In this document: positions 1,498-21,971 of the stretch, one piece after another
Layout: the number at the start of each line of letters is the position of its first letter
Position numbering within the stretch: the stretch's first letter is position 1
Translations under genes and position numbers: made by a program
IMG/VR virus record: IMGVR_UViG_3300031335_000006
Coordinates: 1-33,850 of that record
Reading direction: 5' to 3' (one strand)
Source of the DNA: a virus
Length of the DNA stretch: 33,850 nt
The notes under the pieces: model-generated
Seen by the model: only the letters and a program-made list of their open reading frames with translations
What the model was told of the DNA's origin: nothing
Databases searched by the model: none

Positions 1498-1794
1498 TTA
1501 CTGATAGCTAATATCCAGCCCCAACGACTGCGCGACTACGTGCTCAGCCACCGCGCCCTTAGAGTGCACCCACCCCCGCAGCATGTAGACGGCATCGACG
1601 CAGAGCAGCTGCGCGATCGACAGCCGCATATACTGCGCGTGGGCGACCGCAGAAGCGCTGTCGTAGTTGACCGCAGGGTCGATGACCGCGTAGCCTAGCA
1701 GCCGCCATTCGTGCGCAGCAGCGGCGAACGCGGGGCGATTGTGGAGCGTGATGCCCGTGATCGGGCCGCTGATGTAGATGATGCGTGTTTTCAT
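1498..1794 (-). CDS. DUF4406 family protein (nucleoside deoxyribosyltransferase-like fold)
   Basis: The N-terminus IYISGPITG and the later segment YMLRGWVHSKGAVAEHVVAQ are the two signatures of DUF4406, common in phage genomes and related to nucleoside 2-deoxyribosyltransferases. In this family the first motif forms the nucleotide-binding strand-loop, and the Glu of the KGAxxE motif (here E84) corresponds to the catalytic acid of deoxyribosyltransferases. A role in base salvage or modification is inferred. The 98-residue length is usual for the family. It lies downstream of the deformylase-like gene, and the leader before its start is AACACT. Confidence 0.85.
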   Translation of the reverse strand: MKTRIIYISGPITGITLHNRPAFAAAAHEWRLLGYAVIDPAVNYDSASAVAHAQYMRLSIAQLLCVDAVYMLRGWVHSKGAVAEHVVAQSLGLDISYQ

Positions 1795-1984: not shown

Positions 1985-2377
1985 TTAAAAGAGGCATACG
2001 CCGTTTAAGTGGTCAAGCTCGCGCTGGAATACGATGGCAGGAAGGCCGACTAACTTCTTGTCTTTGCTCTTACCTTGTTCGTCAATGTAGCGGACTTCGA
2101 CGATCTTAGCGCGGCGCACTGTCGTAGTGCGCCCAGGGAAACTAAGGCAACCCTCCTTGGATGGCGTAGATCCGGTCTCACTAATAATCTCGGGATTGAT
2201 AACCATGCCGTGCTGCCAAACAAACCAGCGCTTATTATGTCCGACTTGGTTTGCGGCCAATCCGACGCCCTTTTGCTCCCACATAAGTTTGGCTGCCTCT
2301 TTGTAGAGCTTGCGCGTTTCGTCAATATCCTCGACCTTGCAGCTGCGGGTTCTTAGGTATTTCGGATCTAGTTTCAT
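1985..2377 (-). CDS. def: peptide deformylase-like protein with altered metal-site motif
   Basis: All three deformylase motifs are in order: GVGLAANQ (37-44), EGCLS (75-79) and QRELDH (118-123). Deformylases remove the formyl group from the N-terminal Met of new proteins and bind metal through the Cys of EGCLS and the two His of HExxH. Here the first His is Arg119 (codon CGC), so one metal ligand is missing while Glu120 and His123 remain. The protein is 130 residues and ends soon after motif 3, like other short phage deformylases that lack the C-terminal helix. It may be inactive, bind metal differently, or have another role. The leader is C/A-rich (CACGACAAAC) with no Shine-Dalgarno. Confidence 0.85.
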   Translation of the reverse strand: MKLDPKYLRTRSCKVEDIDETRKLYKEAAKLMWEQKGVGLAANQVGHNKRWFVWQHGMVINPEIISETGSTPSKEGCLSFPGRTTTVRRAKIVEVRYIDEQGKSKDKKLVGLPAIVFQRELDHLNGVCLF

Positions 2378-3461: not shown

Positions 3462-3704
3462 CTACTCAGCCGCCATCCCGCGCATCCGCAAAATCGCCGC
3501 CATTGCTCCAGCCCGCTGCCCAGCCAGCCGCGCTGCCAGCTTGCGCGCTGCCTTGACCTCGCTCGCCCGCTGCGCCTGGTAGGCTTCAAGGTCTCGGTCT
3601 ATGTAGCCATCGATGACCGGCGGCAGTCCACGGTCGGCTCGCTGCTGCTTGCGCTCGGCGGCCTTTGTCGCCTTTTCCCTGTCGGTCATTCGCGGTCGTC
3701 CCAT
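3462..3704 (-). CDS. hypothetical basic coiled protein, 80 aa
   Basis: The protein begins MGRPRMTDREKATKAAERKQ and is mostly charged helix, with an Ala/Arg-rich C-terminal half (KAARKLAARLAGQRAGAMAA). The GRPR start resembles a minor-groove AT-hook, so nucleic-acid binding is possible but not shown. It is the first leftward gene beside the switch region. A family B motif lies 71 bases upstream of its start. Confidence 0.6.
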   Translation of the reverse strand: MGRPRMTDREKATKAAERKQQRADRGLPPVIDGYIDRDLEAYQAQRASEVKAARKLAARLAGQRAGAMAAILRMRGMAAE

Positions 3705-3774
3705 AGGAGGGCACTTTCTAGCGTGGTATGCGCCCCGTCAAGCCCGTCTAGCAAGAAATATGGCAATAGGGCTT

Positions 3775-3793
3775 GTATTCATAATCTGGATAC
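3775..3793 (-). promoter_or_regulatory. family B 19-bp motif
   Basis: Reads GTATCCAGATTATGAATAC on the minus strand. It is the most symmetrical copy (GTATCC/GAATAC arms) and lies upstream of the leftward gene at 3704. Confidence 0.6.
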
Positions 3794-3842
3794 ACACAGT
3801 GACAGATGCAAAGACGGTTTCGTAGTCGTTTTCGTGTGTTAA

Positions 3843-3879
3843 GCGTCCCTGCCGTTTATTCGGTGGGGGCGCTTTTTTT
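3843..3879 (+). terminator. intrinsic terminator
   Basis: GCGTCCC pairs with GGGGCGC (one G-U), with an inner CCG/CGG pair, followed by seven T. It faces rightward although no clear rightward gene lies upstream, so it may end a rightward RNA made from the 3705-3840 region or insulate the RNA region behind it. Confidence 0.75.
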
Positions 3880-3890
3880 CGTATAGGGTA

Positions 3891-3920
3891 TTGACACGCG
3901 GGCAGATTGCTGCATTTGTA
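3891..3920 (+). promoter_or_regulatory. candidate promoter for structured RNA
   Basis: TTGACA at 3891-3896, then 17 bases to a weak -10 (ATTTGT) at 3914. It lies right after the 3843 terminator and points into a gene-free structured region. Confidence 0.45.
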
Positions 3921-3924
3921 GGCG

Positions 3925-4024
3925 TATCGAAAAGATTCGAAGCTTTGCAGGCACGAACAGTTTTCCCGTCCTAGTGACAATTTTAGAACCTCGGTTTTCG
4001 CCTGCAAAGCGCCGAGGTTCTTTT
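3925..4024 (+). ncRNA. candidate structured RNA with terminator and alternative pairing
   Basis: No gene is present. In order: a small hairpin TCGAA-AAGA-TTCGA (3927-3940), an 11-base segment GCTTTGCAGGC (3942-3952), and a terminator-like hairpin with a perfect 10-bp stem AGAACCTCGG/CCGAGGTTCT (3985-3994 with 4012-4021) and a 3' TTTT. The hairpin loop holds GCCTGCAAAGC (4000-4010), the exact complement of 3942-3952. The two pairings form either a pseudoknot or mutually exclusive states, as in an attenuator. The promoter-like sequence at 3891 would start the RNA near 3927. Confidence 0.5.
3985..4024 (+). terminator. terminator-like hairpin with 10-bp stem
   Basis: A perfect 10-bp stem (AGAACCTCGG and its complement) ends in TTCTTTT. 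The 17-base loop includes an 11-base segment complementary to 3942-3952. Confidence 0.6.
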
Positions 4025-4227
4025 GGTCTCAGTCAATAGGAGCAAGCGATGAGATCCATTAGCCCGAGTCCTACGGTGCAGTCGTCAACTCATAACTGGG
4101 GACTGCTTAATACGGATTCGATGACCGCTTCAGGAATGTCATCGCGTGCACTACCCTGCTATCATGCCTACTCATCGGGAACTGAGGCCAGCATCGGGGG
4201 TAGAGCGAAAAGCTTGGCCTCTTTTTT
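4025..4227 (+). ncRNA. second candidate structured RNA
   Basis: This gene-free segment has two good hairpins, GCAGTC/GACTGC (4078-4083 with 4101-4106) and CGATGAC/GTCATCG (4119-4125 with 4138-4144), and ends in a strong terminator at 4184-4227. An open frame of 73 codons from ATG 4049 has AGGAG at a suitable distance, but its Ser/Thr/Arg-rich product looks random and runs through the terminator. I favour an RNA, possibly with a short leader peptide. Confidence 0.4.
4184..4227 (+). terminator. intrinsic terminator
   Basis: GAGGCCA pairs with TGGCCTC, followed by six T (4222-4227). A further GC/GC pair inside extends the stem past a bulge. Confidence 0.75.
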
Positions 4228-4348
4228 AAGGACAGCACGATTCTCCCATAATTCAAGGTTTAGGATTTAGGCTTTGGGGTATGGGGGAACCGTGCCCGTA
4301 GCCCGGCGCAGCATTTTTAATAAGGTTTGCTACGTAGCATCCAGCCAC

Positions 4349-4384: not shown

Positions 4385-4759
4385 ATGAACGACCCCTACA
4401 CGATCACACTAGGATTCCCCGACATCGAAATGCTGAAGACTCCGAAAGGCGGCTACAAGCGCAAGACCCTCGAATACATCGGCGTAAGCTGGCCACCGAA
4501 AAAAGGCTGGCCTGCCCGCACCGTCGGAAACCGCGTGAATCTGTCCGCATACGAGGCCGCCTTGCATGATGCAGAAATTCTGGCAGGGAAGAAAAACCAG
4601 CAACCCGAGCCGAGGCACCCCGAAGCCCCGCGCTCACGTGGGGAAATGCTCACAGTCATTCAGCGGTGCCAAGCCGGGGACATTGATGCTCTCGGGCTGC
4701 TGCGGATATTTGAGCACGAGACTGACAAGGCGATTTCGGCTGTCTTGGCTGACTCGTAA
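4385..4759 (+). CDS. hypothetical protein, 124 aa
   Basis: This is the first gene of the rightward early region. The start MNDPYTITLGFPDIEML follows the CACTACCACGAAACGACC leader; longer forms from 4274 would place the family B motif inside the coding region. Residues 1-70 look like a compact domain rich in G, K and W (GVSWPPKKGWPARTVGNRVN). A helical C-terminus (LTVIQRCQAGDIDALGLLRIF) follows after a Pro-rich linker. No family is recognised. Confidence 0.7.
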   Translation: MNDPYTITLGFPDIEMLKTPKGGYKRKTLEYIGVSWPPKKGWPARTVGNRVNLSAYEAALHDAEILAGKKNQQPEPRHPEAPRSRGEMLTVIQRCQAGDIDALGLLRIFEHETDKAISAVLADS

Positions 4760-5533: not shown

Positions 5534-6013
5534 ATGACCACACCCGAAAACATACTCGCCCTCGACATGGCCACGACTACCGGATGGGCTGAGCTCCGCG
5601 CTGGTGTCGTATCCTGCGGGCGCGTCAAATTCGCCCGACTGCCAGCCACCAAGAGCCGCGAGCAAGACCACGAGGGCAAGCGTCTGCTCGACTTCGAAAA
5701 GTGGCTCCACGGCGTATTGCGCGACCTACAACCGGCGGTGATCTATTTTGAGGAGGCCATTACCAACCGGCCGAATACTGCCCGATTGCTTTACGGATTC
5801 CGAGCTATAATGATGAGCAGGGCAGCGCATTACAACATACCAGCCGTGGGCTGTCACATCGGCACAGTCAAGAAGTTCGCGACCGGCCGCGGCAATGCGC
5901 AAAAGCACGAAATGGTGGCGGCGGCAAAATCGGTCTGGCCGCACTTGGATATTTGCGACGACAATGTCGCAGACGCTCTGCACTTGCTGAATTACGGGCG
6001 CGAAAATAAATAA
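5534..6013 (+). CDS. RuvC-like Holliday junction resolvase
   Basis: The RNase H-fold acidic residues are in place: D11 in ILALDMATTTGW, E73/E74 in VIYFEEAITNRP, and D142, D143 and D147 in CDDNVADALHLL. This is the phage RuvC-like family, which cuts branched DNA before packaging or during recombination. The 159-residue length is normal. The start at 5534 follows the CACGACACGACT leader; an upstream Met at 5507 is less likely. It lies with methylase, SSB-like and ERF genes in a DNA-metabolism block. Confidence 0.9.
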   Translation: MTTPENILALDMATTTGWAELRAGVVSCGRVKFARLPATKSREQDHEGKRLLDFEKWLHGVLRDLQPAVIYFEEAITNRPNTARLLYGFRAIMMSRAAHYNIPAVGCHIGTVKKFATGRGNAQKHEMVAAAKSVWPHLDICDDNVADALHLLNYGRENK

Positions 6014-6020
6014 ATAAATA

Positions 6021-6048
6021 TGCACAAAAAGACTTGACAACCTGCACA
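6021..6048 (+). promoter_or_regulatory. family A promoter upstream of the 119-aa gene
   Basis: TGCACA at 6021, TTGACA at 6034-6039, and CCTGCACA ending at 6048. The leader 6049-6114 (GCATGTT..TATCG.AGGCAATCAGCC..ACACACAC) is shared with the leftward gene at 3339. Confidence 0.65.
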
Positions 6049-6114
6049 GTCTCCCGCATGTTCTTGTTATCGGAGGCAATCAGCCCGAGACACACACACT
6101 AAAAACTACGAAAT

Positions 6115-21179: not shown

Positions 21180-21208
21180 ACAGCCCCGCAGCAATGCGGG
21201 GCTGTTTT
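21180..21208 (+). terminator. strong intrinsic terminator
   Basis: ACAGCCCCGCA and TGCGGGGCTGT form a perfect 11-bp stem with loop GCAA, then TTTT. Confidence 0.9.
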
Positions 21209-21209
21209 G

Positions 21210-21251
21210 TGCACACAAACACTTGACAACCTGCACACACAACGCACTATC
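21210..21251 (+). promoter_or_regulatory. family A promoter of the DNA ligase
   Basis: TGCACA at 21210, TTGACA at 21223-21228, CCTGCACA ending at 21237, and a -10 candidate ACTATC after exactly 17 bases (21246-21251). Confidence 0.7.
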
Positions 21252-21257
21252 TACCCC

Positions 21258-21971
21258 ATGACACACGCCCCCCAACTCGCTACAGACTACTACGGCCAAC
21301 CGATCAAAGGCTGGCTGCTTTCCGAAAAGCTGGACGGCATCTACGCAGATTGGACAGGATCAGAGCTTCGCACGAAGACAGGCAAGCTCATCCTATGCCC
21401 TACGAGCATCACAGACAGCCTTCCAGCGTTTCCCTTAGCGGGCGAGCTATGGGCGGGGCGCGGAGGGTTTCAGCGCGTTCTATCCGCCCTCAAATCTGGC
21501 ATCTCTGGCGACTGGGCAAGTATTGAGTTTGTGGCATTTGACGCGCCCGGCTCACTTGCCCGCGCATCAACTCGGATGGAGATAACACAAAGCATCCCTA
21601 GCGTTAAAGCGGTATCCCAAACCGTAATTACCGACAAGCGCCACATGAAGCGCCTAGTCAAAGAGATACTAGCCACCGGCGGAGAGGGCGCAATCCTGCG
21701 CAATCCAGCATCACTATACACCGCTGGCAGGTCTGACGACTACGCCAAGGTCAAGCCCGTGCTATGCGACGAGGCGACCTATACGGGCAAGACAGTGACC
21801 ACAGCGACGGGAAAAACTTCATTAATCTGCGAGTATCAAGGTGAGACCTTTAAACTCCACACCAACACGCCAGCAACTAAAGGCCAGCTAGTCACGTTTG
21901 AATATTACGGACTGACAGACAGTGGCAAACCTCGGCACGCTCAGTTTATTGCAATCAGAGACTACGAGTAA
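21258..21971 (+). CDS. ATP-dependent DNA ligase
   Basis: Motif I with the adenylated Lys is KLDG (24-27), motif III GELW (62-65), motif IV EGAILR (143-148), and motif V YAKVKP (162-167). A C-terminal OB domain (LVTFEYYGLTDSGKPRHAQF) closes the protein. The 237-residue length matches minimal viral ligases. It seals nicks in phage DNA. It is placed between head and tail genes with its own family A promoter and terminator, so it is a self-contained cassette expressed separately from the late genes. The start is only 7 bases after the -10 candidate, so the leader must be very short. Confidence 0.93.
   Translation: MTHAPQLATDYYGQPIKGWLLSEKLDGIYADWTGSELRTKTGKLILCPTSITDSLPAFPLAGELWAGRGGFQRVLSALKSGISGDWASIEFVAFDAPGSLARASTRMEITQSIPSVKAVSQTVITDKRHMKRLVKEILATGGEGAILRNPASLYTAGRSDDYAKVKPVLCDEATYTGKTVTTATGKTSLICEYQGETFKLHTNTPATKGQLVTFEYYGLTDSGKPRHAQFIAIRDYE

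Follow-up and report, generated by a model that had tools for sequence, protein, structure and literature searches.

The non-coding region in front of the early operon of this phage raises the question of what a terminator-like hairpin might do when its loop can pair, base for base, with a segment made earlier in the same RNA. The window, i.e., the whole stretch of DNA that was analysed, is a virus record of 33.85 kb with a GC content of 54%, and its terminase, portal, major head protein and tape measure identify it as a tailed phage. A leftward block of small genes terminates at 3704 and a rightward early operon begins at 4385; in the latter, the first ORF is followed by an N4/N6 methyltransferase, a RuvC-like resolvase, a DUF3127 SSB (single-strand-binding protein) and Erf. 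The 680 non-coding bases in between hold three rightward terminator-like hairpins (T1, hairpin 2 and T3; Table 1), the second of which has the complementary loop. A coding origin of the region was rejected: the ORFs at 3738-4007 (minus strand) and 4049-4270 (plus strand) have no gene-like signs, and the alleles described below are wholly different at 3930-4024.

Table 1. Features of the leader and its surroundings, in window coordinates
Feature	Position	Strand	Details
T1, upstream terminator-like hairpin	3841-3881	+	14 pairs, T7
Candidate promoter	3891-3919	+	TTGACA 3891-3896, 17-nt spacer, TGC-ATTTGT (weak -10)
Hairpin 1	3936-3957	+	TTCG-AA-GC[TTTGCAG]GC-A-CGAA, segment A in loop; from partial transcript folds
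Segment A	3942-3952	+	GCTTTGCAGGC; exact complement of 4000-4010
Hairpin 2, intrinsic-terminator-like	3985-4024	+	perfect 10-bp stem 3985-3994/4012-4021, then TTTT
Segment B	4000-4010	+	GCCTGCAAAGC; in hairpin 2 loop
Non-coding segment	4025-4192	+	98.8% identical to L005
T3, third terminator-like hairpin	4184-4228	+	100% conserved
First ORF of rightward early operon	4385-4759	+	124 aa, no family

The preliminary description had reported a terminator-like hairpin with a perfect 10-bp stem and a 17-base loop, in which an 11-mer is the exact complement of another 50 bases upstream. Both the hairpin, whose stem reads AGAACCTCGG/CCGAGGTTCT, and the exact complementarity of segments A and B proved correct, with a measured distance of 47 nt between the arms; the U tract in the window is short (four T). 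The TTGACA promoter candidate fared less well: the hexamer is there, but the ATTTGT 17 nt downstream is a poor -10 sequence, and a sigma-70 promoter scan did not report the candidate at 3891. Its downstream half (GCTGCATTTGTAGG, GTATCGAAA) is kept in two related contigs, L005 and L007, and the spacer is variable.

Within the loop of hairpin 2, an inner stem (3999-4001/4009-4011) closes an apical loop, CTGCAAA (4002-4008). Read with the inner stems, the 11-mer becomes a pair of 7-nt loops, with GC[UUUGCAG]GC in hairpin 1 facing CGC[CUGCAAA]GCG in the terminator. G-C flanks lengthen the loop-loop match in both hairpins, the loop pairs themselves comprising 6-7 nt (UUUGCAG/CUGCAAA in the window, CUGCCA/UGGCAG in L005). 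Hairpin 1 is weak, with 4 bp in the window and 3 bp in L005, where the layout is alike (UCG..CGA). The A/B pair occurs once in the window and in none of 100 shuffles.

In IMG/VR, six relatives contain the region in whole or in part, and five carry the leader (the contigs of L003/L008, L004, L007, L005 and L006); no DNA similarity to the region was found in INPHARED and PLSDB. The module of the window is present in L003, L004 and L007 and a different one in L005 and L006, two window-type alleles thus being known. The preliminary description had named variation without compensation in relatives as the outcome that would tell against pairing, and the opposite was found. In L005 and L006 the stem AAAACCGAGA/TCTCGGTTTT replaces that of the window (with a T7 tract in L005), the loop word has become TGCTGGCAGGC and the upstream word GCCTGCCAGCA, and these two are again exactly complementary over 11 bp. 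The gap to the terminator hairpin is 32 nt in the window and 30 nt in L005. Between these two contigs the module is only 55% identical, whereas the flanks of the swapped module are 87-100% identical to the window; the differences amount to 2 of 168 positions in the segment at 4025-4192, 5 of 39 in the promoter and 13 of 243 in the neighboring gene (94.7% identical). In L007, by contrast, segment A and the hairpin are 100% identical to the window, with a neighboring gene at 86.8% and more diverged flanks. Because L007 combines a diverged gene with an identical module, and L005 a closer gene with a replaced one, the module moves between relatives as a unit, taking its complementarity along. Judged by this comparison, the complementarity of A and B is not a product of chance, and their pairing is strongly supported.

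Downstream of the module, the non-coding segment at 4025-4192 is better conserved between the alleles (98.8%) than the neighboring genes (94-95%). At its 5' end lies GGTCTCAGT (4025-4033), able to base-pair with the 5' arm of T3, ACTGAGGCC (4181-4189), and the segment and T3 together possibly form a second attenuator. A second kissing pair at T3 (GGGTAG in the loop with CTACCC at 4151-4156) was rejected, its 6 bp being within chance, as matches at the 6-mer level are not significant. Upstream, L005 has an extra hairpin inserted at T1 (an insertion of about 60 nt, L005 5440-5505). Its loop contains CTTTGCA, which complements TGCAAAG, a motif conserved upstream (window 3807-3813), as well as part of the loop word of the window; this hairpin may be a relic or a second kissing pair.

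The same architecture recurs in other phages. We defined the class by complementarity of at least 6 bp between the loop of a 5' hairpin and that of a terminator hairpin lying 15-45 nt further downstream, as seen in the window, and complementarity is kept under sequence change both between the window and L005 and in other members. The terminator follows the 5' hairpin after about 15-35 nt, the gap varies among elements (about 10-36 nt) and the words are unrelated. L027, an AT-rich phage found by scanning loci fetched via the methyltransferase, has no similarity to the window leader and carries a hairpin, CTATTG[TTCGGGCAGGCT]CAATAG, followed after 28 nt by a terminator whose loop contains CCTGCCCGA. 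A pattern fixed on the arms of this terminator, with the loop left free, matches 29 IMG/VR contigs. When L027-type sequences were aligned with Flavobacterium phage 11b (25 sequences), 96.8% of the pair cells held standard pairs and 11 pairs were changed on both sides (57 cells), a result seen in 0 of 500 shuffles, with no slid register comparable; the kissing helix itself shows G-C to A-U and G-C to U-A changes. A 1.58 Mb scan yielded further elements with unrelated words, e.g., L034, in which GAATTATTCTTG[AGGTGAGAGG]CAAGAATAATTC faces CTCTCACCT in the terminator loop. Members of a second group have a common AATGAA/GGATTT inner loop and a word that differs in almost every phage (among them CGTCTCAC, CTTCTGAC, GGTTCGAC, GCTTCAAC, AGTCCTAC and GCTCTCAC). 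Here 87 of 88 word positions are complementary, which none of 5000 row shuffles equaled, and the kissing helix is 100% paired, with five of its eight pairs double-changed (0 of 500 shuffles).

Five cultured Bacteroidota phages carry an element, i.e., 11b, elemo, Harreka_1, tooticki6-1 (twice) and phi19:3, the last with a 9-nt word and the element 22 nt before a DUF6291-like gene. The genes downstream of elements are often replication genes (DUF6291/DnaD-like, DEAD helicase; named from reading the translations). Covariance models of the L027-type (R1) and AATGAA-type (R2) found no match in the window, L005 or L007; the window element may be analogous or homologous to these flavophage families. 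The exact L027-type pattern was absent from 84,980 GTDB genomes, and model R2 gave nothing in 296 genomes of the Epilithonimonas family in a search run without a positive control. Matches of 7-14 nt in L011, L030, L054, L070, L072, L074, L116 and L139 were set aside as looking like chance, coding or repeat matches. Two kissing-loop terminators were present on each of nine contigs (L035, L022, L110, L109, L117, L182, L137, L193 and tooticki6-1 (L210)), with different words where both could be read.

For a systematic comparison, 905 non-redundant terminator hairpins from 185 loci were tested against permuted upstream regions; the loci had been gathered by gene similarity or pattern, and the frequencies therefore do not describe phages in general. 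Matches between the terminator loop and an upstream hairpin loop numbered 45 at 7 bases or more (10.4 expected), 19 at 8 or more (2.95 expected) and 8 at 9 or more (0.5 expected). From these counts, about a quarter of the 7-base matches are expected by chance, and those of 8 bases or more are mostly real. A Bacteroidota-type promoter box, TAnnTT[TA]G, precedes the terminator by 25-75 nt in 27 of the 37 best elements versus 23 of 247 control terminators. Similarly, an ATG frame starting within 40 nt downstream, and open through the 60 nt examined, follows 32 of the 37 best elements versus 68 of 247 controls. An ORF begins no more than about 30 nt from the end of most other elements, whereas in the window the ORF at 4385 starts 360 nt downstream.

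In folds of successive prefixes of the window transcript, A:B pairing was predicted to form once B is made, before the 3' arm of the terminator exists. The A:B fold can, by prediction, extend to that arm and the U tract in both alleles. The predicted energies of the A:B and terminator states are -32.5 and -26.9 kcal/mol in the window and -32.2 and -23.4 kcal/mol in L005, so that the A:B state is the more stable by prediction; the programs used cannot score both states together. Such an antiterminator-like fold exists in both alleles, and most other elements have a different minimum-energy fold. For 24 of 37 elements that fold already contains both hairpins, and their pairing therefore does not have to compete with the terminator.

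We favor, with a probability of roughly 0.55, a promoter-proximal attenuator in which loop-loop (kissing) pairing tunes read-through into early or replication operons while the RNA is being transcribed. A leader RNA of about 100 nt would end in the intrinsic terminator, and its 5' hairpin would display segment A, which would pair with B in the terminator loop (as a loop-loop complex or pseudoknot) as the terminator arm is made. Such pairing can occur during transcription, since the polymerase makes A first and B becomes accessible ahead of the 3' arm. It would then either delay the terminator stem, with the 3' arm and U tract paired and read-through favored, or lock the finished terminator, and so set the amount of transcription entering the early operon; binding of a protein, a further RNA or a second copy of the leader to A or B would shift the switch. 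In the window and L005 the modeled A:B fold can act as an antiterminator, whereas in most other elements the predicted hairpins coexist, so kissing may gate timing or stabilize the finished terminator. That the leader is transcribed, that transcription terminates at hairpin 2 and that A:B pairing controls termination, in whichever direction, is what we infer. The attenuator reading given in the preliminary description thus stands in part. The anatomy of promoter, 5' hairpin, terminator and ORF is common to many phage elements, but control of the early operon in the window can only be inferred, because the ORF is so far downstream, behind the conserved segment and a further terminator-like hairpin.

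Does the element belong to a system already described? Rfam 15 gave no match at gathering thresholds in the window and, at relaxed thresholds, only weak, generic terminator-like ones with E values of 0.026 and above; over A:B, a relaxed search returned nothing except rne5 at E 3.4. Nor did any family match the elements at L027, L021 or nine other loci, and no description of this architecture was found in open-licence papers. The c4 antisense RNA of P1 and P7 (Rfam C4) is a phage antisense RNA of exchangeable specificity, the target of which is a downstream ribosome-binding site; the window differs in having no Rfam C4 match, at gathering or below. The put RNA of HK022 has two hairpins. It is reported to belong to phage early genes as a promoter-proximal leader RNA, and to act on termination by suppressing it (PMC9378689). 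However, it acts on distant terminators via RNA polymerase, whereas here hairpin 2 is the terminator and pairs with hairpin 1. In pT181-type attenuators, the leader of a replication gene, which contains an intrinsic terminator, kisses with a separate antisense RNA (PMC4878617). The likeness lies in a leader before replication genes, a 5' hairpin plus intrinsic terminator, and loop-loop kissing, which decides the outcome there (PMC4878617) and would do so here, but the pT181 partner comes from the opposite strand, whereas here both loops lie in one transcript and the partner is the terminator's own loop. No conserved minus-strand promoter was seen at the leader; a -35/-10-like match on that strand (4008-3980) is, as read by eye, not kept in L005. 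The CI immunity RNA of P4 shares an untranslated leader before replication genes, a segment complementary to one upstream, and premature termination, and acts in trans on seqA and seqC (PMC4825925). It is a processed trans-acting RNA with a second, downstream target, seqC; in the window, the only other exact copy or complement of the segment is its upstream partner. As a control, a kissing-loop scan over P4 7000-10000 found no kissing-loop terminator. By the features tested, the element is attenuator-like and a member of none of the pT181-type, P4 CI, c4 and put systems. New here is the regulating partner proposed for the terminator loop, the 5' loop of its own transcript, and the element appears to be a new type of RNA switch governing the reading of downstream genes.

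A tentative alternative, to which we give a minor but real chance, is that the element yields a trans-acting specificity RNA. Terminated leaders would accumulate and pair, by B or A, with nascent leaders of other genome copies or of incoming relatives, feeding back on read-through as do P4 CI RNA (PMC4825925) and plasmid antisense RNAs. Self-recognition would account for the divergence of words between close relatives and for their exchange as a unit, and the hypervariable yet always compensated words, the exchange of modules and the position of elements before early or replication genes fit it. Nevertheless, A and B are parts of a single RNA and would pair with each other in cis, there is no third copy like seqC, no integrase or repressor was recognized in the window, several phages have two elements with different words, and the words of the L027-type scarcely vary. 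A speculative, and at present rather improbable, generalization is a widespread class of self-recognizing attenuators, each combining a private hypervariable word with the matching complement in the loop of its terminator, in which terminated copies, proportional to genome copies, would act only on nascent leaders of the same phage. If true, this would amount to an RNA-word sensor of copy number or superinfection, selected to differ between phages.

We consider it unlikely that the kissing is purely structural, i.e., that it only makes a compact, stable terminated RNA (for 3'-end protection, or as a protein-binding phage sRNA) and leaves downstream genes uncontrolled. The coexistence of the hairpins in the predicted folds would suit such a role, as would the joint conservation of stems, inner loops (AAGUAA/UGAAA and AAUGAA/GGAUUU) and kissing helix, but the excess of nearby ORF starts over controls points to a leader and not to an independent RNA gene. 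Much less probable still is that a phage repressor recognizes the inverted words as paired operators in the DNA, with their location in loops incidental: promoter-adjacent inverted repeats replaced like cassettes do resemble operators, but the words lie in the loops of two covarying RNA hairpins, whose inner stems covary too, and their spacing is variable. Chance complementarity can practically be dismissed, since, although 11-mers arise by chance somewhere in large data sets, two independent alleles (window and L005) each match over 11 bases, 20 x 905 (18,100) permuted trials never produced 10 or more matching bases between loops, and the compensated allele already refutes it.

If confirmed, the attenuator would represent a common, RNA-only control of early and replication operons in phages, especially phages of Bacteroidota, a phylum of hosts in which little has been learned about phage regulation. 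Rfam 15 has no family for the elements, cultured phages in which they can be tested carry them, and they would offer a natural set of orthogonal kissing pairs for RNA engineering. The rule that a terminator loop is complementary to an upstream loop finds structured leaders that sequence searches miss because the words vary.

Several other features of the window were observed. It encodes a peptide deformylase (1985-2377, minus strand), a nucleoside 2-deoxyribosyltransferase-like protein (1498-1794, minus strand) and an ATP-dependent DNA ligase (21207-21971). At 5749-6093, inside and after the RuvC-like gene, there is a cluster of mismatches with the otherwise identical L003, as from recombination. 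A promoter-like element, (TGCACACA..)TTGACA-(N0-2)-CCTGCACA, recurs ahead of genes on either strand, lacking a canonical -10, at 1470 (-), 3422 (-), 4776 (+), 5481 (+), 6034 (+), 15786 (+), 20668 (+) and 21223 (+), one near-match being CCTGTGCA; it looks like a phage-wide class of early promoter. Finally, the minus strand at 2691-2728 holds a tmRNA/tRNA-like minihelix, GGGGCUG-CAUC-AGGGUUCGAUUCCCUC-CAGUUCC-ACUA, in which a tmRNA acceptor stem is closed directly on the T arm and the entire mRNA part is absent (a local search with Rfam tmRNA gave E 2e-6, a hit that stays below the gathering threshold). The stretch holding it is missing from L005, and a weaker tmRNA-like match occurs in L137 at 1786-1862.
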